30,962 bases of DNA, from the IMG/VR virus record IMGVR_UViG_3300020196_000159, positions 1 through 30,962 of that record, one strand, 5' to 3'. This document shows, one piece after another, positions 530 through 23,346 of this stretch (position 1 is the first letter of the stretch; every line of letters starts with the position of its first letter). The notes below the pieces were generated by a model that was not told the DNA's origin, did not search any database, and was given only the letters and a program-made list of their open reading frames with translations. Made by a program: the position numbers and the translations under genes. Source of the stretch: a virus.

Positions 530-870
530 TGTCTGAACGTAAGCGCGTTAGTGATATTTTTGCTAGAGAAATAGAAGATAATTCTATTGAGTCTCTACGT
601 TATCTTTGCGAAAATGCTATTGCTGCCGAAAACAGTGGAGAGTGGCACGGGCTTCATATTGATAAAGAATGGAGTTTTGGGTATGACAATTATGATACAG
701 AGTGCCAAATCGTTATCAAAGGTGAGCGTTGGGAAACAGACAAAGAGTATGCCAAACGCATGAAACAAAAAGAACGCTCAAAAGTTCAGAGCGAAAAGGA
801 TAAGATAGCGAATTTGGAAAACGAGCGTAAGCAATACGAACGTCTAAAGAAAAAGTTTGAGGGAAAATAA
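529..870 (+). CDS. hypothetical protein with C-terminal coiled coil
   Basis: 113 residues starting at an ATG 8 bases after an AAAGGA element. The first 70 residues contain an aromatic/acidic segment (EWHGLHIDKEWSFGYDNYDTE). Residues about 70-113 are almost entirely charged (KQKERSKVQSEKDKIANLENE), typical of a long solvent-exposed or coiled-coil helix. The stop overlaps the polymerase ATG (TAATG), so it is probably co-translated with the polymerase. Function unknown; a replication accessory role is only suggested by position. Confidence 0.7.
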   Translation: MSERKRVSDIFAREIEDNSIESLRYLCENAIAAENSGEWHGLHIDKEWSFGYDNYDTECQIVIKGERWETDKEYAKRMKQKERSKVQSEKDKIANLENERKQYERLKKKFEGK

Positions 871-3800
871 TGAGCGATAGAAAGAAATCTTCAATTCCGT
901 TTTTCTCCATGCATATGCACAGCACGTATTCGATTTTTGATGGAATCGGCTATCCTGATGATTTTGCTGATTATTCTTATAGTAATGGTCTTTCAGGAAT
1001 GGCGATGACGGAGCATGGGTCAATGAATTCTTTTAGTCATTCCTTTATGAAGGCTAAACAGATGAAAGAGCAAGGTATTAACGATTTCAAAATTGCCTAT
1101 GGAATTGAGGCTTATATCCACCCATCAATTAGTAGATGGAAGCAAGAACACACAAAGCATAAAGAAGATGCAAAGCTTGCAAAGCAAGTTGACGATGATG
1201 TTGGTCTTGTTGTCGAAGACGAAAGCGAAACAAAGAAGGGTATTCGTTCGACGTTAAATCGTCGTTCACACCTTGTGTTGGTTGCCCAAAATCAAAAGGG
1301 TTTGAACAATCTTTTCAAGCTTGTCTCCGATTCATATCGTGGAGACAATATGTATCGTTTTCCTCGTATGGATTACGATATGCTTAAGCAATATAACGAA
1401 GGCATTATTGCAAGCTCTGCCTGTCTTGGTGGTGTTCTTGCGAACGACTATTGGGATAATATTGAGAAGGGCGAGAAGGCTGTTTACGCAGCAATGGAAA
1501 AGACTGTCAAGGCAATGATGGATATCTTTGGCGACCGTTTCTATGGCGAATTACAGTGGGCAAACTATAAGGAACAGCACATTGTAAATCAGTACGTTAT
1601 CAATCTTTCAAAGCAATTAGGATTCCAATTAATCAGCACTTGTGATGCACACTTTCCTAATCCTGATATGTGGAAGGACCGTGAAATTTACAAGATGCTT
1701 GGCTGGATGGGCAAGCGCAAAGACGAGATAAAGATTGATGCTTTACCTAGAACACTTGAAGAAATGGAATATCAGCTTTTTCCAAAGAATGGCGATGAGC
1801 TTTATGATACATATAAACGTTTCTCAGGCGCTCTTGGATTTAGTTATGATGATAAATTGGTAGAAGCGAGTATTGCTCGTACAGCAGATATTCTCAAGAA
1901 TCGTATCGAAGATTATATGCCTGATACGAGCATTAAACTTCCAAGCTTTGTTATCCCAGAAGGTGAAACTGCGGATAGTGCTTTAGCAAAGTTTTCTGTT
2001 GATGCGTTAAAGAATACCGGTCTATACAAGAATCAAGAATACATTGATCGTCTAAAAGAAGAATTACACACGATCAAAGACCGTGGATTCTCTAAATATT
2101 TCCTGACTATGAAAAAAATCAGCGATAAGGTTTCTGATAACCAACTTGTTGGTTCTGGTCGTGGCTCTGGCGCAGGATCTCTTGTATCATATCTACTCGG
2201 TATTACGCAGGTAGATCCAATTAAGTATAAACTCCAGTTCTCAAGATTCATTCGTAAGAATGCAAAAGACTTTCCAGATATTGATTATGACTGTGCAGAG
2301 CCAATGGAAGTAAAAGAAATGTTTATTAAGGAATTCGGTGAAAATACTGTTGTTCCTATTTCTAATTATAATACGCTACAAATCCGTTCGCTTATTAAAG
2401 ATATCAGCAAACTATATGATATTCCATTTACAGAAGTAAATGATGTAACAAGCAAAATGTTATTAGAAGCTACTCCTGTAGCAAAGCGTGAAAAAGGTAT
2501 TACTGCCGGTGTATATAATCCAACTTGGGATGAACTAAAGAATTACTCTCCAAGTTTGACACAGTATTTAAACAAATATCCACATGTTGCAACTCATGTA
2601 GAAAATCTGCAAGGTCAAATCCGCAGTATTTCTCGTCATGCGGGTGGTGTGTTATTTGCAGATAATCTGGATCAGAAGATGCCGCTAATTAACAGTGGTG
2701 GTGTAATTCAAACTCCTTGGACTGAAGGGCAAACTGTACGTCATTTGGAACCATTGGGATTTATTAAGTTTGATATCCTTGGTCTTGCTTCTCTACGCAT
2801 GATTGAAACCTGTATTGAACATATCTTAAAGCGTAATCACAATATTCCTAATCCAACATTTGCGGATATCAAAAAATATTATGATGAGAAGCTGCATCCA
2901 AATTCAATCAATCTTGAAGATGAAGCAGTATATAAATACGTATTCCACGAAGGTAACTTTTGTGGTACTTTCCAGTTCACCAATACTGCCGCACAGAAAT
3001 TCTGTAAACAGGCATTGCCAAGAAATATCCTAGATATTGCCGCCATCACTTCTATTTTCCGTCCCGGTCCATTATCAGCCAACGTCCACGAAAAATATAT
3101 TGAAGCAAAGAAAAATCCTGAAGATATTTCTTATGTGCATGAACTAGTTAAGGAAGTAACAAAAGATACATATGGATTTATTGTTTTCCAAGAACAATTA
3201 AGTCTTCTCGCTCACAAGTTAGGGAAGGATATTTCGCTGGATGAAGGCAACGAACTTCGAAAAGTACTCACAAAAAAAGGCACTGGAAAAGAAGCTCAAG
3301 TTAAAGAGAAGCTGTACGGCAAGTTCATTGACGGCTGTAAAGAAAAAGGACTCCCAGAGTCTACTGGATCTTCTCTTTGGAAAAGTATGGAGTTTTTCAG
3401 CGGATACGGCTTTAACTTGTCTCATGCTATTTGTTATTCTATACTTTCTTATCAGTGTGCTTATCTCTTTTACTATTATCCTGCTGAGTGGCTTGCTGCC
3501 TTCTTGGATAAAGAGCCTGAAGAAAGAAAAGAAGCAGCAATAAGTCTTGCCAAGAATTATAATTTTAATATCAAGCGTCTAGATATCAATAGTTCTGGTA
3601 GAAAATGGGAAGTTGATGCAGATGGTAAAACACTAATTCAGCCATTATCTTCAATTAAAGGTTTGGGCGATACAGCAATTGAACAAATTATGAATAATCG
3701 TCCATTTACATCTATTGATAATTTGCTTTTCAATGAGAATATAGTTTATAGCAAATTAAATAAGAAAGCTCTTGATGCCCTAACAAGAAGTGGTGCTATG

Positions 3801-4304
3801 AATAAACTTGTAGATAGTAGATTTACTGGTCTTAAACATTTCTGGTCAGCAGCGGTTGTGGACCGTCCAAAGACACCAAAAAAGTTTGCAGATAACATAG
3901 AAAAATATAAACCAGAAGGTGACTTTTCTGATGAAGAAAAACTAGAACACATGGTATCCTTAACTGGTGTATATCCAATCAATATGGTTATGACTCCTGA
4001 AATCTTTAAAAGATTGGAAGAGAAATATATTCCTGCAATTGGCGATTATGATCCACAACTTGGTGAAGTAGTCTGGTTTATTCCACGCAGTATTGAAGAA
4101 AAGAAAACAAAGAATGGTAAACTTTATTGGATTATGAGCGTCACGGATAATACCAATAAAATAACAGCAATTAAGTGCTGGGGCATAGATCCAGCAAAAG
4201 ATAAGGTATGGACTAATAGACCATATCTTGGTAAACTTTCATATGATGAACAGTGGGGTTGGAGCACAAGAAGTATCCGGCATACATTTAAGCTATTAGG
4301 ATAA
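870..4304 (+). CDS. dnaE: DNA polymerase III alpha-type replicative polymerase (DnaE-like)
   Basis: A 1144-residue C-family DNA polymerase, close to the length of bacterial DnaE (about 1160). An N-terminal PHP domain retains metal-ligand-like motifs: HMH at residues 15-17, TEHGS, SACLGG and CDAHF. The palm has GSGRGSGAGS at 428-437. It also has PDIDYDC, whose D472 and D474 align with catalytic D401/D403 of E. coli DnaE, and KFDILGL with D635, matching D555. Further signatures are FRPGPL, VFQEQ, LRKVLTKKGTG and FSGYGFNLSHA. A C-terminal OB-like segment (about 1060-1144) ends the protein. An intact PHP site suggests intrinsic proofreading, as proposed for some bacterial alpha subunits; this is inference. 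GAGGGA lies before the ATG. It is followed by a homing endonuclease, a common neighbour of phage polymerases. Confidence 0.97.
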   Translation: MSDRKKSSIPFFSMHMHSTYSIFDGIGYPDDFADYSYSNGLSGMAMTEHGSMNSFSHSFMKAKQMKEQGINDFKIAYGIEAYIHPSISRWKQEHTKHKEDAKLAKQVDDDVGLVVEDESETKKGIRSTLNRRSHLVLVAQNQKGLNNLFKLVSDSYRGDNMYRFPRMDYDMLKQYNEGIIASSACLGGVLANDYWDNIEKGEKAVYAAMEKTVKAMMDIFGDRFYGELQWANYKEQHIVNQYVINLSKQLGFQLISTCDAHFPNPDMWKDREIYKMLGWMGKRKDEIKIDALPRTLEEMEYQLFPKNGDELYDTYKRFSGALGFSYDDKLVEASIARTADILKNRIEDYMPDTSIKLPSFVIPEGETADSALAKFSVDALKNTGLYKNQEYIDRLKEELHTIKDRGFSKYFLTMKKISDKVSDNQLVGSGRGSGAGSLVSYLLGITQVDPIKYKLQFSRFIRKNAKDFPDIDYDCAEPMEVKEMFIKEFGENTVVPISNYNTLQIRSLIKDISKLYDIPFTEVNDVTSKMLLEATPVAKREKGITAGVYNPTWDELKNYSPSLTQYLNKYPHVATHVENLQGQIRSISRHAGGVLFADNLDQKMPLINSGGVIQTPWTEGQTVRHLEPLGFIKFDILGLASLRMIETCIEHILKRNHNIPNPTFADIKKYYDEKLHPNSINLEDEAVYKYVFHEGNFCGTFQFTNTAAQKFCKQALPRNILDIAAITSIFRPGPLSANVHEKYIEAKKNPEDISYVHELVKEVTKDTYGFIVFQEQLSLLAHKLGKDISLDEGNELRKVLTKKGTGKEAQVKEKLYGKFIDGCKEKGLPESTGSSLWKSMEFFSGYGFNLSHAICYSILSYQCAYLFYYYPAEWLAAFLDKEPEERKEAAISLAKNYNFNIKRLDINSSGRKWEVDADGKTLIQPLSSIKGLGDTAIEQIMNNRPFTSIDNLLFNENIVYSKLNKKALDALTRSGAMNKLVDSRFTGLKHFWSAAVVDRPKTPKKFADNIEKYKPEGDFSDEEKLEHMVSLTGVYPINMVMTPEIFKRLEEKYIPAIGDYDPQLGEVVWFIPRSIEEKKTKNGKLYWIMSVTDNTNKITAIKCWGIDPAKDKVWTNRPYLGKLSYDEQWGWSTRSIRHTFKLLG

Positions 4305-4310
4305 TTTATG
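4298..4310 (+). repeat. 13-bp direct repeat, upstream copy flanking HNH gene
   Basis: AGGATAATTTATG contains the end of the polymerase gene, the Shine-Dalgarno AGGA and the start codon of the HNH gene. The same 13 bases recur at 5030-5042, where they hold the ribosome site and start codon of the following small gene. The HNH gene is therefore bracketed by identical translation-start cassettes, as expected if it was inserted between two genes while keeping a working start for the downstream one. Confidence 0.7.
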
Positions 4311-5036
4311 GAAGCAAAAATTTGTTCTAAATGTAAAGAAGAAAAAAGCGTAAGTGATTTCTACATCGGTAGAAAACAATGCAAAAAATGTCTTGTAGAA
4401 CGTGAAGCTCAATACTATTCTGCCAATAAGGAAAAGATTGCAGAACAAAAAGCTCAATATCGTTCTGCCAATAAGGAAAAGATTGCAGAACAAAAAGCTC
4501 AATACTATTCTGCCAATAAGGAAAAGATTGCAGAACAAAAAGCTCAATACTATTCTGCCAATAAGGAAAAGCTTGTAGAACGTGAAGCTCAATATCGTTC
4601 TGCCAATAAGGAAAAGATTGCAGAACGTCAAGCTCAATATCGTTCTGCCAATAAGGAAAAGATTGCAGAACAAAAAGCTCAATACGTGAATAAAAGACTT
4701 AAAACCGATCCGCGATTTAAATTAGACATTTATTTCAGTAGATCCATTAGAGATACTTTAAAAAATATTAATTCTTCAAAGAATGGCCGTAGTTGGGAAA
4801 GTTTAGTAGGTTATAGCGCACAACAATTAAAAGAACATCTTGAGAAACAATTCAAACCAGAAATGAATTGGGAAAATCACGGGACATATTGGCACATAGA
4901 CCATAAAAGGCCGAAGAGTTGGTTTAATTATGATAGCGCTGAACATCCAGATTTTAAACAGTGTTGGGCTTTAGAAAACTTGCAGCCATTAGAGGCTACA
5001 GAAAATATGAAAAAGAGTAACAAATTTGAAGGATAA
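4308..5036 (+). CDS. HNH homing endonuclease with tandem 15-residue repeats
   Basis: A 242-residue free-standing nuclease. The N-terminus has a CxxC...CxxC zinc-finger-like segment (CSKCKEEKS to CKKC, residues about 5-29). Residues 34-123 are six nearly identical 15-residue repeats (AQYxSANKEKIAEQK). The C-terminus carries the HNH core: WHIDHKRPKSWF with H196, D198 and H199, then CWALENLQPLEATENMKKSNK, the Asn/His pattern of phage HNH homing enzymes. The repeats probably form a long helix acting as a spacer between the DNA-reading finger and the nuclease. It is a selfish element next to the polymerase gene; such enzymes usually cut alleles lacking the insertion. The flanking 13-bp repeat marks likely insertion borders. 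Confidence 0.9.
   Translation: MEAKICSKCKEEKSVSDFYIGRKQCKKCLVEREAQYYSANKEKIAEQKAQYRSANKEKIAEQKAQYYSANKEKIAEQKAQYYSANKEKLVEREAQYRSANKEKIAERQAQYRSANKEKIAEQKAQYVNKRLKTDPRFKLDIYFSRSIRDTLKNINSSKNGRSWESLVGYSAQQLKEHLEKQFKPEMNWENHGTYWHIDHKRPKSWFNYDSAEHPDFKQCWALENLQPLEATENMKKSNKFEG
4407..4676 (+). repeat. 45-bp tandem repeat (six units) inside HNH gene
   Basis: Six in-frame units of exactly 45 bp start at 4407, 4452, 4497, 4542, 4587 and 4632, and a truncated seventh begins at 4677. Differences are few and mostly second/third-position changes (YY versus YR; EQK versus ERE or ERQ). Near identity at the DNA level indicates recent expansion by slippage or recombination, so copy number may vary between relatives. 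Confidence 0.95.
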
Positions 5037-5042
5037 TTTATG
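5030..5042 (+). repeat. 13-bp direct repeat, downstream copy flanking HNH gene
   Basis: Second copy of AGGATAATTTATG (first at 4298-4310). It supplies the Shine-Dalgarno and ATG for the 58-residue gene at 5040. Confidence 0.7.
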
Positions 5043-7141: not shown

Positions 7142-7376
7142 AACAGGTAATAAAAAAAAGAAACTAGAGCATAAGATGGCCACAACAGCCAATATGATTC
7201 TTAATATTCCTGATAAATGTAAAAGCTGTAGTGAGCCGTTTGACAAGAAAAATAAGATGATGGTATTATCATGGTATGTTGAGGTCTATAACGAACAAAA
7301 ACGTGTAGACCTATATTGTCCTAAATGTCAGGAAGATCGGAAAACCAATGAAGCTACAAGAAACTCTTGCGTTTGA
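7125..7376 (+). CDS. small putative zinc-ribbon protein
   Basis: 83 residues, overlapping the previous gene by 17 bases and the next by 29. A lysine-rich N-terminus (residues 5-16) precedes CKSC and, about 35 residues later, CPKC. This two-CxxC arrangement is typical of a zinc ribbon that binds nucleic acid or protein. The overlap with both neighbours is larger than usual here, so the start could lie downstream, for example at the Met of HKMATTAN. Function unknown. Confidence 0.65.
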   Translation: MGSRSKTGNKKKKLEHKMATTANMILNIPDKCKSCSEPFDKKNKMMVLSWYVEVYNEQKRVDLYCPKCQEDRKTNEATRNSCV

Positions 7377-8373
7377 TGATGTTTTACTTGTCCCACAATA
7401 TAGTGATATAGAAAGCAGAAAAGATACAGATATTTCATCTTGGCTAGATGGAGAAATAAAGCTATCTATTCCAATTATCTCTAGTCCTATGGATACAGTC
7501 ACTGGTCATGTAATGGCCTGCGAAATAAGCATCTTAGGTGGTTTGGGCATTCTTCATAGATATTCTAGTATTGATGAACAAGCTGATTGGGTTAAGTATT
7601 GTAAAGATAATTATGCATCACATGTAGGAGTAGCGGTTGGTTCTACGGGTGATTTTTTAGAGCGAACAGAAAAATGTTTAAATGCAGGCGCAAATGTTAT
7701 TTGTGTTGATGTAGCGCACGGCGATCATATATCAGTTAAAAATGCCATAAGAGATATAAGAAATAAGTTTGGTTGGCGTATCCATGTCATGGCAGGAAAT
7801 GTAGCTACTAAAGAAGCGTTTGATCATTTAGCGCATTGGGGTGCGGATAGCATCCGCGTTGGAGTTGGCGGTGGAAGCATTTGCAGCACGCGCATACAAA
7901 CTGGTCATGGTATGCCAACGCTAGCTTCTATAATTGATTGTAAGGATACTACTTTTAATGCTAAGTTAATAGCAGACGGTGGTATAAAAAGCTCTGGTGA
8001 TATTGTAAAAGCATTAGCAGCAGGAGCAGACTTTGTTATGCTGGGCTCTATGCTTGCTGGTACTAATGAAACTCCCGGTGAAATTTTTGAAGAAAATGGT
8101 AAACAATACAAAGTTTATCGTGGTATGGCGAGCAAAGAAGCCCAAATAGCTTGGAAAGGAAGTTACTCTAGTTTTGAAGGAGTAGCTTCCAAAGTAGCCT
8201 GTAAGGGTCATCTACCTAATGTTCTTGATGATATTGCACGCAATATTCGCAGCGGTCTATCGTATAGCGGTGCTAAAGATTTAGTGGAATTACGCGCAAA
8301 AGCTAAGTTTATTAAACAAAGTGGCGCTGCCCAAATAGAAAGTTCGCCACATATATTAATTCGTCATGGATAA
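7348..8373 (+). CDS. IMP dehydrogenase/GMP reductase family protein without CBS domains
   Basis: 341-residue TIM-barrel oxidoreductase. Visible motifs are the N-terminal TFDDVLL-type segment ([20 protein letters not shown]), [27 protein letters not shown] and [16 protein letters not shown] with the nucleophile Cys at residue 179. Then come [20 protein letters not shown], the GSMLAGT phosphate-binding loop and YRGMASKEA. Bacterial IMPDH has about 490 residues with an inserted CBS pair; here [11 protein letters not shown] runs straight on without it, matching GMP reductase in length. The C-terminus ([19 protein letters not shown], then ESSPH) is closer to IMPDH. The enzyme therefore makes XMP from IMP or IMP from GMP; I cannot decide which. 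With the PurA gene at 30680 it suggests steering of purine pools. Confidence 0.9.
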
Positions 8374-11004: not shown

Positions 11005-11649
11005 ATGAAAACAACCAAAAATAATCCTAAGAAAAGCGATGAGCAGCATAAGCATGAAGAAAGAGAAGGTTTGATTATTTTTCAAAACGATGCTAGCATG
11101 GAAGAACCATCGCGAACAATAGGATTATTTGGTGATGTTGCGGAACAAACATGCGCTGAAGTTATATCTAATTTAATTGCCTTAAGTAAAACAGGCGAGA
11201 TTCCTAAAAATGAACGCAAAGACAAATATACAAACTTACCTATTGAATTTTATCTTAATACGCATGGTGGATCTGCCAGCGATATGTTTGCGATTTACGA
11301 TATGATGCGTCAAGTGCGCAAAAAATGCGAAATACAAACTATAGGCATGGGTAAGATAATGAGTGCCGGTGTGCTGCTAATGGCAGCGGGAACCAAAGGA
11401 AAGCGTAAAATCGGTGCCCATGCCCGCGTCATGATACATTCAGTTCTTGGTGGAACCGTAGGCCCATTACATAATGTACAAAACGAATTTGACGAAATAA
11501 AGTTTGTTCAGGAAGCTTATACAAAAGCTCTAATTAAAGAAACAGATCTTACACCAAAAGCAATGAAAGACCTATTAGAGCGTCACGTAAATATATATCT
11601 TTCTGCGCAAGAAGCTGTTAAATACGGCATAGCTGACGAGGTAATTTAA
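11005..11649 (+). CDS. ClpP-like serine protease lacking the usual Asp
   Basis: 214 residues of the ClpP/crotonase-like serine protease fold. Family motifs are GLFGDV, FYLNTHGGSASDMFAIYDMM, GMGKIMSAGVLLMAAG (nucleophile S120) and ARVMIHSVLGG (H145). S120 and H145 are 25 residues apart, as are S97 and H122 of E. coli ClpP. The third triad member does not match: in LERHVNIYLSAQEAVKYG the position of D171 holds H194 or N196, depending on where a two-residue insertion is placed. The first 30 residues are charged and disordered-looking. It may be a head-maturation protease, a partner or decoy for host Clp ATPases, or weakly active. The terminal YGIADEVI is normal for the family. Confidence 0.9.
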   Translation: MKTTKNNPKKSDEQHKHEEREGLIIFQNDASMEEPSRTIGLFGDVAEQTCAEVISNLIALSKTGEIPKNERKDKYTNLPIEFYLNTHGGSASDMFAIYDMMRQVRKKCEIQTIGMGKIMSAGVLLMAAGTKGKRKIGAHARVMIHSVLGGTVGPLHNVQNEFDEIKFVQEAYTKALIKETDLTPKAMKDLLERHVNIYLSAQEAVKYGIADEVI

Positions 11650-14850: not shown

Positions 14851-14870
14851 CTAGAAAGGTGTGGTGTTTT

Positions 14871-16451
14871 GTGAAGAAAGTTTATGATAGTGGATTAAGT
14901 CTTAATTCTAAAATTTTGTCTGGTGTAAATAAATTAGCTGATGCTGTTAGTAGCACTCTTGGTCCAAAGGGACGGAATGTTATTATCCACAATAAAGGTA
15001 AAAGCCCTGTAATCACAAAAGATGGTGTAACGTGTTCTGAAGCAATAGTTTTTGAAGATGTGTTTGAAAATGTTGGAGCGCAAGTATTAAAACAGGCAAC
15101 AGCTGTAACAGCAACAGAAGCTGGCGATGGCACAACTACTGCAACTGTGTTAGCAAGGGCCATTGTTAATCAAGCGCAAAAATATATTATTGCCGGTGCT
15201 TCACCAACCGATTTAAAACGTGGCATGGAAAGTGCGGCTATCAAGATTGTGTCTAAAATCAAAGAACACAGTAAACCGGTTGCTTCATTGGAAGATATTG
15301 AACATATAGCAACTATATCTGCAAATGGTGATAACAAAATTGGCAAGCTTATATCTACAGCAGTAGATAAAGTTGGTAAAGATGGAGCTGTAACAATTGA
15401 AGAAGGAAAAAGTCTAGATACAGTATTAGATATCGTAGAAGGCTTTCAATTTGATAGCGGTTATGTGTCAACGCAATTTATAACCGATGAAAGACGTGGA
15501 GCGGTTCGTTATGAAAATGCGCTTGTCATGGTCACGGATCATAATCTATCATCTATCGATGAAATGATGCCTATTTTAGAAATAGTAGCTAGAGAAAATA
15601 AGCCATTTATTATTGTTGCCGATAACATTGAAGGCCAATTGTTAGCAGCGCTTATTCTTAATACACTTCGTGGTACAATGCGTATAGCCGCTATTAAAGC
15701 ACCAAGATATGGAGAAGAGCGCAAAAATATCCTTAGTGATTTAGCATTATCAGTAGGCGCTACATTTGTTTCCCGTGAAAGCGGTTTGGCAATAAATGAG
15801 TTAAAGCGCCAGCATTTAGGAACCGCTAAAACGGTTGAATCATTAAAAACTTGGACTACAGTTGTTGGTGGCGGTGGTAACTATGATGACGTTGAGCGCC
15901 GCATAGAAGCTCTAAAAACAGAAATTTCAAATACATCAGATATGCGAGAATGTCAGAAGATACAAGAACGCATAACCAGATTAGCCTCTGGAATCGCCAT
16001 AATCCGCGTAGGAGGCTTAACTGAAGTAGATATGGTAGAACGTAAGCACCGAATAGAGGACGCCCTAGAAGCCGTTAAGAGCGCTCAACAGGAAGGTGTA
16101 TTGCCGGGAGGTGGAACGGCATTATACAGACTATCGCGTAATTTAGATACTGAAGTGTCTACAGAAAATCAAGATGAACGCTTTGGTGTCGAAATTATTA
16201 TGAAAGCCTGCGAGGAACCAATAAGAAAACTATCAGAAAATTCAGGGCTTAAAGCTGATGTTATCCTAAACGATCTTGAAATTAGTCATAATGAATTCTG
16301 GGATGGCATGAATTTCGCTACTGGACATTATAGTGATATGGCTGGCGTGGGCATAATAGACCCAGCTAAGGTTACTCGTTGTGCTTTACAAAATGCCGTA
16401 AGCGCTGCGTCTACTTTACTCACCACCTCCCATGCTATTATAGAAATTTAG
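14871..16451 (+). CDS. groEL: GroEL-like chaperonin (Hsp60)
   Basis: 526 residues from GTG 14871, which follows AAAGGTG. An in-frame GTG at 14859 is possible but adds MWCF with no ribosome site. Equatorial motifs are intact: TLGPKGRNV, ITKDG (D51, equivalent to E. coli D52), EAGDGTTTATVLA (D86, equivalent to D87) and GLTEVDMVERKHRIEDAL (equivalent of D398), then GVLPGGGTAL. An apical domain lies between about 190 and 370. The protein ends in TTSHAIIEI, so the Gly-Gly-Met tail of host GroEL is missing. No GroES gene is visible, so it must use the host's, one encoded elsewhere, or work alone. Phage chaperonins probably fold virion proteins. Confidence 0.95.
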   Translation: MKKVYDSGLSLNSKILSGVNKLADAVSSTLGPKGRNVIIHNKGKSPVITKDGVTCSEAIVFEDVFENVGAQVLKQATAVTATEAGDGTTTATVLARAIVNQAQKYIIAGASPTDLKRGMESAAIKIVSKIKEHSKPVASLEDIEHIATISANGDNKIGKLISTAVDKVGKDGAVTIEEGKSLDTVLDIVEGFQFDSGYVSTQFITDERRGAVRYENALVMVTDHNLSSIDEMMPILEIVARENKPFIIVADNIEGQLLAALILNTLRGTMRIAAIKAPRYGEERKNILSDLALSVGATFVSRESGLAINELKRQHLGTAKTVESLKTWTTVVGGGGNYDDVERRIEALKTEISNTSDMRECQKIQERITRLASGIAIIRVGGLTEVDMVERKHRIEDALEAVKSAQQEGVLPGGGTALYRLSRNLDTEVSTENQDERFGVEIIMKACEEPIRKLSENSGLKADVILNDLEISHNEFWDGMNFATGHYSDMAGVGIIDPAKVTRCALQNAVSAASTLLTTSHAIIEI

Positions 16452-19153: not shown

Positions 19154-19482
19154 TGTCTATTAAATCTTTATTAGAAAACATGATTCGGGAAATAATTCAA
19201 GAAGAATATCTTGATGTAAGCGATTTACTGGTTGAAGGTACTTTTGATAAAGAGAAAAGCAGTGGTCTACACGGTTGGTTTCAGCGTCAAGGTGGAAAAG
19301 GTAAAAGCAAAGGTTGGGTGGATTGTTCTTCTTGTAGAACTAACCCCAAGACTGGCAAAAAAACTTGTAAGTCGTGTGGTAGACAAACCGGAGAAAAAAG
19401 AAAATATCCTTCCTGTAGGCCGACACCAAGTGCTTGTTCAATGCCGGGTAAGGGAAAAAAATGGGGTAAAAAAGGTGGATAG
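19153..19482 (+). CDS. small basic Cys-rich protein with signature-like N-terminus
   Basis: 109 residues coupled to the previous gene by TAATG. The N-terminal segment SLLENMIREIIQEEYLDV fits the recurring signature shifted by a few residues (IREIIQE-EYLDV versus KQVIKE-EYQRV). It is followed by GLHGWFQRQGGKGKSKGWVD, CSSC, CKSCGR, and GEKRKYPSCRPTPSAC. C58/C61 and C72/C75 could form a zinc ribbon; C88 and C95 are extra. The GEKRKYPSCRPT block occurs, as I recall, in proteins of many phages and giant viruses as a domain of unknown function. The strongly basic tail suggests contact with packaged DNA. Its last bases overlap the start of an HNH gene. Confidence 0.8.
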   Translation: MSIKSLLENMIREIIQEEYLDVSDLLVEGTFDKEKSSGLHGWFQRQGGKGKSKGWVDCSSCRTNPKTGKKTCKSCGRQTGEKRKYPSCRPTPSACSMPGKGKKWGKKGG

Positions 19483-19972
19483 TAAAATTTGTATTGCTTG
19501 TGGACAGTCTTTTTTTAATGAAAGTAAATATTTTAGTAGGCAAAAATATTGTTCTAAAAAATGTAAACAGAAACAAACAGATATAAGAAGATCGAAAAAA
19601 GAAAATAGACTTATAAGTAGAAGAAAAATAGATTTACGCTATAGAAACAAAAATTTAGATAAAAGAAGAAAAGCTTACTCAACTTGGGCTAAAAGCAAAA
19701 GAGGAAAAATATTAAGAAGTGTTTCCTGTTCTTGTCGTCATAAAAGAGTTAAAAAACAAACTCCACCTTGGGCAGATTTAGAAGCTATTAAAAAAATTTA
19801 TTTATTATGCGAAGAAATGAATTTAAAAGAAAATATTTATCAAGTTGATCATATATATCCTTTGAATGGAAAAGAAGTTTGCGGTTTACATATAGCAGAA
19901 AATTTAACAATAATCACAGCAAAACAAAATCAACAAAAAGGTAATAAATTACCAAACCAACCGGAAAAATAA
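19475..19972 (+). CDS. HNH homing endonuclease (GTG start)
   Basis: 165 residues if started at GTG 19475, 8 bases before the end of the previous gene. The frame extends upstream to 19232 but there only shadows that gene. The N-terminus has CIACGQSFF...RQKYCSKKC, a zinc-finger-like module common in these nucleases. A basic linker (about 35-100) follows. The C-terminus YQVDHIYPLNGKEVCGLHIA, ENLTIITAKQNQQKGNK is the HNH core: Asp-His, then Asn and a terminal N/K motif as in phage homing enzymes. It borrows the end of the host gene for its translation start and ends 1 base before the next ATG, separating two probably co-transcribed genes. Confidence 0.85.
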   Translation: MDSKICIACGQSFFNESKYFSRQKYCSKKCKQKQTDIRRSKKENRLISRRKIDLRYRNKNLDKRRKAYSTWAKSKRGKILRSVSCSCRHKRVKKQTPPWADLEAIKKIYLLCEEMNLKENIYQVDHIYPLNGKEVCGLHIAENLTIITAKQNQQKGNKLPNQPEK

Positions 19973-20393: not shown

Positions 20394-21023
20394 ATGTTTA
20401 TAGTATATTTGATACAAAATAAATTTACTGATAAATGTTATATTGGCTATACAAAACATTCTATTGAAAAAAGATGGAAACAACACTGTAGAAATTCAAA
20501 AAAACAAGTCAACACGCCATTTTATAATGCAATAAAAAAATATGGATTTGATTGTTGGGATAAAAAAGTTTTATTAGAATGTAATACCGCAGAAGAAGCA
20601 AAAAGTAAAGAAATAGAATTTATAGAAAAGTTTGGTTCTTATAAGAGTGGATATAATGCAACCTTGGGTGGCGATGGGAACAACGGTTTAATAATGACAG
20701 AAGAAAGTAACTTAAAAAGAAGTTTGGCCTTAAAAGGAAAACCTAAAAACTATTTAAGAATGCACGGTAAAAAACATTCCGCACAAACTATACAAAAGAT
20801 GAAAAAACCTAAAATTGATAAATCTAATTATCAAACCGAAGAATTTAAAAATTTGATGAGAAAAAAACAAGCAAAAGCTGCCAGAGAAAGAAGAGTTTTA
20901 ACAAAAGTACAATATGATGAAATTAATAAGTTAGTTAGCGACGGCATTAGCAAAAAACAAATTTCTTTATTATTGTCAATCAACTACGATATTGTAAAAA
21001 AATGGTCCTGCCGTAAATGGTAA
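20394..21023 (+). CDS. GIY-YIG homing endonuclease
   Basis: 209 residues. The catalytic domain (1-95) has VYLIQN and CYIGYT in place of GIY and YIG, KHSIEKRWKQH with the conserved Arg, FYNAIKKYGFDCW and EIEFIEKFGSYKSGYNATLG with the conserved Glu and Asn. DNA-binding NUMOD3-like segments follow (TEESNLKRSLALKGKPK, GKKHSAQTIQKMKK). A C-terminal helix-turn-helix (YDEINKLVSDGISKKQISLL) ends in WSCRKW. It starts 3 bases after the stop of the 19974 gene without a clear ribosome site. Selfish mobile gene; together with the HNH gene upstream it marks this spot as a homing hotspot. Confidence 0.92.
   Translation: MFIVYLIQNKFTDKCYIGYTKHSIEKRWKQHCRNSKKQVNTPFYNAIKKYGFDCWDKKVLLECNTAEEAKSKEIEFIEKFGSYKSGYNATLGGDGNNGLIMTEESNLKRSLALKGKPKNYLRMHGKKHSAQTIQKMKKPKIDKSNYQTEEFKNLMRKKQAKAARERRVLTKVQYDEINKLVSDGISKKQISLLLSINYDIVKKWSCRKW
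21003..21023 (+). repeat. gene-end repeat, copy 2 (WSCRKW stop)
   Basis: The last 21 bases of the GIY-YIG gene; see 20370-20390. Both copies keep the W-S-C-(K/R)-x-W-stop pattern with synonymous or conservative changes. Confidence 0.4.
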
Positions 21024-21057: not shown

Positions 21058-23346
21058 ATGAGCAATCCAAAGAATGATATTAATTTTTTAAGAGTAAAAT
21101 TAAAAAGGTTAGAGGGTTTTAAGACTTCTGCTAACACAGACTTGATAGACCTTAAAAGCTTTAAAACTAATACAGGTATAGATTTAACAGACCTAAAAAG
21201 TTTCAAAACTAATACAGGTATAGATTTAACAGACCTAAAAAGTTTCAAAACTAATACAGGTATAGATTTAACAGACCTAAAAAGTTTCAAAACTAATACA
21301 GGTATAGATTTAACAGACCTAAAAGGATTCAAGACTACCGCCAATACGGATTTAACAGACCTAAAAGGATTCAAGACTACTGCCAATACGGATTTGACGG
21401 ACCTTAAAAGCTTTAAAACTAATGCCGGTTTAGATTTAACCGATTTAAAGAGTTTCAAGACCAATGCAAATATAGATTTATCAGATTTAAAAGGGTTTAA
21501 AGCATCAGCCAACACAGACTTGATTGATTTGAAAGGTTTCAAGACTACTACCAACACAGATTTAACAGACCTAAAAAGCTTTAAAACCTCTACCAATACT
21601 GATTTGACAGGCTTAAAAAGCTTTAAAACTGGGCTAGAGAACGGAACCAGTATTCCAGTGGGATTATCTAATACTTTTAGAACCGCAGCGCAGGTTTCAA
21701 ACGATATAGCTGGCTTTAATTTTGATGGGGGCGCCAATCCTACTGTTACGCCGATAAGCAGATTTAATTCCGTATCACAATCGCATACGCAATATACAGG
21801 TAGTTATAACAATTTCTCTTCTTCGCACGGCTTTAAATTAAGTAGTATCGCATTTAGTGCTGCAGAAGAAGGAGCTTTTAAATTTGCTTCTTTGGCGGCA
21901 GCTTTAAAAACTTCTTTTTTTGCCGCCGCTAATGACCCAACAACTGGTTATGATAAAGGAAAGTGGTATTTTACTAATACCTTTCCAAGCGGAAACGCAG
22001 ATTATAAACTCTCTTCATATTCTTATCAGGGATACGATACACAAGAACGCTATAACAAAGAGGACTTTATAACTTATAGAAAAAGATTGTATACTGTTAC
22101 TAATAATGCTTATAGTAATGTTATAAATCAAGAAAGTGAACTTTTATTACAAGCTGGTAAGACAACTATTAGAGCTGGTACTCCAAATAACACCACTCCA
22201 ACTTTAAAAATAATTGGTGAGAGCGCTGCTTCCAATGGCGTTGGCGACGACCAAGGACAATTATTATTACAAGATGAAGATAATACAACAAGCGGTTTGA
22301 TGATTGGATACAAATATGTCGCCGCAGGAAATGAATACGGTAGGATACAAGCAAAGAATAGCGCTGGAAGTGCTACTGATTTATATATCAATCCTGCCGG
22401 TGGAAGTGTAAGGATAGGTCGTTTAAATAACAATTATGTAACGGATGGAGCTATAGAATTAAATTATTATGGAGCAGGAAATAGAAATTCATTTATAGAT
22501 TTTCATTCTGATGATTATTACGGCTATCCGGGTGGTAATCCTTCCGCTGGAGGAGATGGCGATTATAGCGGTAGAGTTATAAGATATTCTGGTACTGATG
22601 GAATGATGCAAATTGAAAATAAGGGTTTGGGTGGAATAAGAAATAAAGTTTCTTATGGCGATAGTGGAAATATTTTTGATTGGTATGTTGATAATACTAG
22701 ATTGATGTTTGTAAAAAGTACAGGTCAATTATGGGTTAAGGGTGGTACAACAACCGGAGCAGGAATTAACGTATGGAATGGCGATGTAGCATTAAATTTA
22801 GGCCATCATCACTCCAGTGAAAATGCAGGTAGAATACAAGTTAAATCTGCTGGTTTGGAAGGCACCATCGGAGAAACGAATTATATCTTAAAATTAAACC
22901 CAGATGGTGGAACCGTTTACTCAAATAATGGTATAGTATCTACATCCGATGAAAGAATAAAATATGATATAAAAGAAAGTATTTTAGGATTAGAATTTAT
23001 CAATAAAATAAAACCCGTATCTTATAAATATAAAATAAGAGATATAACTTATGCAACAGGTTCCAACGGAGAAGAGGTGAAAATTCAAAAAACAGGCGTC
23101 AGACCACATTACGGCTTCATAGCACAGCAAATTAAAGAGGCATTGGGAGAGAATGATTTTGCTGGCTATATTTATGAACCATCTCTAGACGAACATGCTT
23201 TACGATATGATGAATTTATTTCTCCAATGGTCAAAGCAATTCAAGAATTATCACAAAAAAATGACTATTTACAGAAAGAACTAGAAGAAAAAGATAAATT
23301 ATTACAAGATATTTTATCAAGATTATCATCACTAGAAAATAAATAA
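21058..23346 (+). CDS. tail fibre/spike with 14-residue repeats and S74 chaperone domain
   Basis: 762 residues. After 19 residues come twelve 14-residue repeats (consensus SFKTNTGIDLTDLK, residues 20-187), two heptads each, which should form a rigid trimeric coiled-coil shaft. The middle (about 190-620) is a beta-rich region with Gly/Asn/Ser-rich strands. The C-terminus is a peptidase S74 intramolecular chaperone: STSDERIKYDIKES with self-cleavage expected before S630, then INKIKPVSYKYK, YGFIAQQIKEAL, RYDEFISPMVKAIQEL and a final coiled coil. The chaperone drives trimerisation and is then cut off. AAGGA lies before a three-codon ORF (21050-21061) whose stop overlaps this ATG. First gene of the adhesin block. 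Confidence 0.93.
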   Translation: MSNPKNDINFLRVKLKRLEGFKTSANTDLIDLKSFKTNTGIDLTDLKSFKTNTGIDLTDLKSFKTNTGIDLTDLKSFKTNTGIDLTDLKGFKTTANTDLTDLKGFKTTANTDLTDLKSFKTNAGLDLTDLKSFKTNANIDLSDLKGFKASANTDLIDLKGFKTTTNTDLTDLKSFKTSTNTDLTGLKSFKTGLENGTSIPVGLSNTFRTAAQVSNDIAGFNFDGGANPTVTPISRFNSVSQSHTQYTGSYNNFSSSHGFKLSSIAFSAAEEGAFKFASLAAALKTSFFAAANDPTTGYDKGKWYFTNTFPSGNADYKLSSYSYQGYDTQERYNKEDFITYRKRLYTVTNNAYSNVINQESELLLQAGKTTIRAGTPNNTTPTLKIIGESAASNGVGDDQGQLLLQDEDNTTSGLMIGYKYVAAGNEYGRIQAKNSAGSATDLYINPAGGSVRIGRLNNNYVTDGAIELNYYGAGNRNSFIDFHSDDYYGYPGGNPSAGGDGDYSGRVIRYSGTDGMMQIENKGLGGIRNKVSYGDSGNIFDWYVDNTRLMFVKSTGQLWVKGGTTTGAGINVWNGDVALNLGHHHSSENAGRIQVKSAGLEGTIGETNYILKLNPDGGTVYSNNGIVSTSDERIKYDIKESILGLEFINKIKPVSYKYKIRDITYATGSNGEEVKIQKTGVRPHYGFIAQQIKEALGENDFAGYIYEPSLDEHALRYDEFISPMVKAIQELSQKNDYLQKELEEKDKLLQDILSRLSSLENK
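21115..21618 (+). repeat. 42-bp tandem repeats coding fibre shaft (12 units)
   Basis: Twelve units of 42 bp run in frame. Units at 21199, 21241 and 21283 are identical in their first 36 bases or more, and the unit at 21157 differs by one or two bases, so the array grew recently. The opposite strand stays open for over 700 bases only because of this repeat. Shaft length could vary between isolates. Confidence 0.95.

Follow-up and report, generated by a model that had tools for sequence, protein, structure and literature searches.

An HNH nuclease gene with six 15-residue repeats beside a viral DNA polymerase III gene, probably a mobile endonuclease with a portable targeting arm

Introduction

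The GIY-YIG homing endonuclease I-TevI, encoded by the td intron of phage T4, joins its DNA-binding and catalytic parts through a long linker that carries a zinc finger, and linker and finger together act as a 'protein ruler' (PMC2988022; PMC4065259). Homing genes are known for modular targeting parts, for repeats and for the swapping of domains (PMC10448857; PMC1564403), and in phages these genes often sit beside DNA polymerase or other replication genes (PMC10448857). The T4 mob genes and the IPA-HNH genes of ICP1-like phages combine an HNH nuclease with a separate targeting part, adjoin polymerase or essential genes and are patchily distributed among relatives (PMC2988022, PMC10448857). In the T5orf172 homing endonucleases the targeting modules are repeated, recombination occurs between the repeats and domains are swapped between genes (PMC10448857).

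NUMODs are common to GIY-YIG and HNH enzymes. These are small modules joined to the nuclease domains of homing enzymes (PMC1564403).

Here we describe a nuclease gene in a viral DNA stretch of 30,962 nt (IMG/VR record IMGVR_UViG_3300020196_000159; from here: the window) in which an array of short repeats separates a C4 finger from an HNH-type nuclease domain. The likeness to I-TevI is one of function only: the latter has another type of nuclease and a 75-residue linker without described tandem repeats, whereas the window protein carries finger and arm at the N-terminus and the nuclease at the C-terminus. The mob and IPA-HNH proteins have other targeting regions (AP2 in IPA-HNH), and arrays of 15-residue repeats hinged at asparagine are not among their descriptions (PMC2988022, PMC10448857). 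The repeated modules of T5orf172 proteins are whole zinc-finger domains, in contrast to the single 15-residue helices considered here. Pfam searches gave no NUMOD match to the repeats, either in the window protein up to E 1 or, with E 0.1 as the limit, in ten proteins that carry repeats. The open-access literature yielded no description of an Asn-hinged 15-residue repeat, and no Pfam model for the repeat was found.

Results

The nuclease ORF occupies positions 4308 to 5036 on the forward strand and encodes 242 amino acids, with an ATG start codon that is preceded a few bases upstream by AGGA. From N- to C-terminus the product consists of a C4 finger, six repeats of 15 residues and a nuclease domain of the HNH type. 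The finger (4323 to 4391, forward strand) is defined by cysteines at residues 6, 9, 25 and 28. Among solved structures it comes closest, in fold and weakly in sequence, to the HNH enzyme PacI with its zinc sites (3ldy; rmsd 1.7 over 40 columns, 35% identity, Foldseek probability 0.94), at E-values that are not significant (E 0.85 for this best PDB match); PacI has 142 residues and differs in lacking a repeat arm. The nuclease domain (4785 to 5033, forward strand) contains the motif WHIDH at 4890 to 4904, followed by N224 and N233. In a family alignment of 40 sequences, D198, H199, P202 and N224 of this region were invariant, and 18 of the 40 members matched Pfam HNH weakly (best 0.0012). Cas9 HNH domains appeared among the PDB matches on a second look, with Z values of 2–2.5. 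The HNH catalytic motif was thus recovered from the alignment, from the weak Pfam matches and from PDB entries, while Pfam gave no match to a GIY-YIG domain in the ORF. PHROG matches were to phrog_1035 (1.1e-16) and phrog_2340 (3.8e-8).

Directly upstream, at 870 to 4304 on the same strand, lies the gene for the DNA polymerase III alpha subunit (Pfam DNA_pol3_alpha 2e-49, PHP 1e-28; phrog_405 5e-225). The nuclease gene is flanked by a 13-bp direct repeat, AGGATAATTTATG, whose first copy (4298 to 4310) spans the Pol III stop codon, the Shine-Dalgarno-like AGGA and the nuclease ATG, and whose second copy (5030 to 5042) lies at the other end of the gene, both read on the forward strand. The string occurs in the window at these two places only. 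Three viruses with Pol III alpha genes 83–89% identical to that of the window (L118, L124 and L135 in our set of records) lack the nuclease gene at this position. In L124 the polymerase gene is followed directly by a dUTPase gene, in L118 and L135 by a cupin-like gene, assigned by eye, and a nucleotidyltransferase gene. The junction between Pol III and the next gene in L135 carries the identical 13 bases. Since the string consists of a stop codon, a ribosome site and a start codon, part of this match may be functional or convergent. Because the closest viruses found lack the gene, and because the Pol III alpha junction matches an empty site, the ORF between these conserved genes is probably a free-standing mobile endonuclease of the homing type, homing itself being our reading of these comparisons. 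Relatives likewise adjoin replication genes, namely the polymerase gene in Kolesnikvirus, a T4-type polymerase gene (L030, L049) and an exonuclease gene (L035).

The same neighbourhood would also suit a structure-specific nuclease, a resolvase similar to endonuclease VII that belongs to the replication and recombination module and is not a selfish gene. The PHROG label 'endonuclease VII' and several record annotations point in this direction. Pfam, however, gave no Endonuclease_7 match to the ORF even at E 1, and the absence of the gene from the closest viruses shows that it is not essential there. Distant kinship to T4 endonuclease VII is possible; a resolvase role we consider improbable.

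Two more candidate homing nucleases are encoded in the window, making three with the ORF at 4308 to 5036. A second HNH ORF at 19232 to 19972 (phrog_26577 1.8e-17, Pfam HNH_4 2.6e-4) combines a finger with a single repeat-like stretch, LRYRNKNLDKRRKAY. The listed start of this ORF overlaps the ORF upstream of it, which makes a later start codon probable. The third, at 20394 to 21020, is a GIY-YIG homing endonuclease with NUMOD3. Other genes of the window are a phage-borne GroEL-like gene (14859 to 16451, Pfam Cpn60_TCP1) and, both assigned by eye only, an IMP dehydrogenase-like gene (7348 to 8373) and a ClpP-like gene (11005 to 11649).

The six repeats of the nuclease gene, 45 bp each, extend from 4407 to 4676 on the forward strand, with unit starts at 4407, 4452, 4497, 4542, 4587 and 4632. 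The spacing is exactly 15 codons throughout, and after unit 6 a seventh start (AQY) continues into the nuclease region. Tandem Repeats Finder reported positions 4405 to 4685 with period 45, 6.2 copies, 91% matches and no indels, at a score of 443 that is far beyond chance. Units 1 and 3 are identical in all 45 bases, as are units 2 and 6; the remaining pairs differ at 3–8 bases. The DNA identity of these pairs indicates that duplication or homogenisation of units was recent. Blocks larger than one unit were probably copied too, because the 15-base string CTTGTAGAACGTGAA, which precedes unit 1, is found again where unit 4 ends, 180 bp further on. At the protein level, units 1 and 3 differ from units 2 and 6 solely at a position occupied by Tyr or Arg. 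Unit identity was 0.83 within the window array and 0.37 to other arrays. A search of viral contigs with a degenerate 40-base pattern gave no match to the window array with another number of units. The first-pass annotation had described an HNH nuclease with a finger, six near-identical 15-residue repeats between the two and a recent 45-bp duplication; the four cysteines and the invariant D198, H199 and N224, the exact spacing with the Tandem Repeats Finder result, and the unit pairs identical over 45 bases bear out these points in turn.

With tblastn, relatives of the nuclease were recovered from 134 phage records, none of them reaching 60% identity, and from 143 stretches of viral contigs. 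Autocorrelation, which uses no motif, peaked at lags of 15, 30, 45 and 60 among 75 non-redundant proteins. A position-weight scan of the non-redundant relatives, biased to 15 by design as the autocorrelation is not, yielded 360 units, with 249 of 287 unit-to-unit steps exactly 15 residues long. The consensus reads K-K-Y-[YR]-x-x-N-[KRP]-[ED]-K-[IVL], in which Asn is by far the most conserved residue, partly by construction since the seed motif contained it; Asn 55 and Asn 85 are conserved to at least 90% in the family alignment. One position per unit is nearly two-valued (Tyr in 158 and Arg in 124 of the 360 units), and one helix face bears the aromatic residue and Ile, Val or Leu. The mean net charge per unit is +2.2 over the family, while the window units are near neutral (-1 to +2). 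Unit numbers range from 2 to 17 across the family, with a mode of 4 among the proteins retrieved when the whole protein served as query. Two apparent regularities were discarded. Spacings other than 15 seemed to favour 11, 19, 22 and 26, as expected of one-turn indels, when strict anchors were used, but a looser anchor gave no excess (19/91, p 0.46); and a link between lack of the finger and long arrays was dropped because the query was biased to long arrays.

AlphaFold modelled the window protein, aligned with 39 relatives, at a mean pLDDT of 95.3 and about 98 in the repeats. Each repeat was predicted as a 14-residue helix, with a single non-helical residue at Asn 40, 55, 70, 85, 100 and 115. 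The array alone, aligned with 17 arrays of which many are joined to other nucleases, showed the same breaks (pLDDT 94.4). Helices classically begin with proline after a capping Asn, and a continuous helix disfavours an internal proline. Among the 360 units, 42 of 45 prolines immediately follow the Asn; the proteins concerned number 24 of 73. The breaks in two models, together with this concentration of proline, which is independent of AlphaFold, favour a view of the array as short helices with hinges at Asn over one continuous 15/4 helix. In a calculation with ideal geometry, a beta-region residue at every fifteenth position gave bends of about 95–125 degrees and a rise of about 11–16 Å per unit, compared with 23 Å if the helix is continuous; clashes arise with several choices of torsion, and these values are only a rough guide. 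A structure search of the PDB with the array alone gave no match at E 10, which is no evidence for a new fold because searches of this sort may discard repetitive helices. Sequence profiles of the array and of the family gave nothing significant against the PDB.

The first-pass annotation had taken the repeat to be helical and, more specifically, a right-handed coiled coil. Ordered helices without predicted disorder (pLDDT 94–98) agree with the former. A continuous 15/4 coiled coil, probably dimeric and serving as a rigid ruler, would account for the exact 15-residue period and for the aromatic and aliphatic residues on one face; pentadecad coiled coils are known, and AlphaFold can bend coiled coils spuriously (PMC11676326). 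Both models nevertheless break at every Asn with high confidence, proline occurs right after it, and the array is without a PDB match, a weak negative. A continuous coiled coil therefore has, in our judgement, only a slight chance of being correct. Copy number differs in related phages, both across the family and, as described below, at a single locus, in agreement with its expandable repeat.

Arrays of this kind are joined to several types of nuclease. Finger and repeats occur with a C-terminal GIY-YIG domain in L025 (Pfam 4.6e-8), L089 and L094 (phrog_314/7168), with a second HNH type in L075 (phrog_26577), and with a classical HNH domain in L113 (Pfam 3e-10) and, by eye, L093. Repeats without a finger accompany an N-terminal GIY-YIG domain in L101 (by PHROG) and L070 (by eye only), and several HNH types in L081, L083, L088, L097 and L100. 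The window array is 62% identical to that of the GIY-YIG protein L025 over 90 ungapped residues. These comparisons are read most simply as common descent combined with exchange of domains; convergence of short repeats is possible.

In six records of the Kolesnikvirus type the nuclease gene follows the polymerase gene. Both ends of the gene, the N-terminal stretch and the HNH-coding end, show about 90–99% DNA identity where aligned, whereas finger and array align poorly between three alleles. Counted by eye from the translations, these have 6 (L140, L148), 8 (L142) and 9 units (L139, L141, L149). Length at one locus thus varies naturally, along with array sequence, a pattern that fits exchange of a targeting region and is no proof of tuned length. 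As the array is exchanged between conserved ends and joined to several nuclease types, it is probably a portable, reusable targeting arm. In Prophecy and SeKF_13 an extra HNH gene lies between the polymerase gene and the repeat-bearing nuclease gene.

Discussion

We favour, with some reserve, a homing-type HNH endonuclease in which finger and Asn-hinged arm bind DNA and keep the nuclease at a preferred spacing from the site they occupy. Finger and arm would bind together; contact of the arm with DNA would be suited by the positive charge that family units carry on average, though the window units come closer to neutrality. The arm would then set or limit the distance at which the nuclease cuts, which is the least certain step and is drawn from the I-TevI linker; by the same analogy it is possible that the arm serves as a 'ruler'. 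Unequal recombination between 45-bp units would add or remove units and so alter reach or target.

The arm might instead be a tolerant spacer, whose 45-bp repeat expands and shrinks without effect on function beyond the separation of two domains. The wide range of unit numbers in the family and at the Kolesnikvirus locus would be expected of such a spacer, as would the homogenised units of the window array. A free spacer, however, need not keep the 15-residue period and the Asn, aromatic and Glu/Lys positions, and these are kept across nuclease types in arrays that are only 20–60% identical. We therefore regard the spacer as unlikely, though still to be reckoned with.

At the other extreme, each repeat might read DNA, the order of units encoding the target. 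The nearly two-valued Tyr/Arg position, by which the otherwise identical units of the window differ, would suit such a code, and so would the exchange of Kolesnikvirus arrays while nuclease and N-terminus were kept. The Tyr/Arg alternation may equally be mere variation in packing or charge, and we hold a code-like array to be highly improbable. Also speculative, and given a very slim chance, is a broader view in which an unnamed class of Asn-hinged single-helix repeats tracks DNA, each unit spanning a fixed number of base pairs, with Tyr or Arg reading sequence or groove shape, as an extendable and exchangeable targeting array common to viral GIY-YIG and HNH nucleases.

Apart from the nuclease gene, the window holds a second in-frame repeat expansion, in a tail fibre gene (21058 to 23346) with about 12 copies of a 42-bp repeat (14 residues, TDLTDLKSFKTNTG-like) and a C-terminal Peptidase_S74 chaperone. 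In Pseudomonas phages, relatives of the nuclease lie under 'tail fiber protein' features (KT887557, KU199710), possibly an annotation error. As no Pfam model represents the repeat, which is scattered over several PHROG families without a name, the labels 'endonuclease VII', 'tail fiber' and 'coil containing' on many repeat proteins may mislead or say little.

Phage homing nucleases switch targets readily, by a mechanism that is only partly understood. An arm that is shared between nuclease types, grows unit by unit and is exchanged between conserved ends would offer natural length variants with which to test whether a linker sets the cutting distance.
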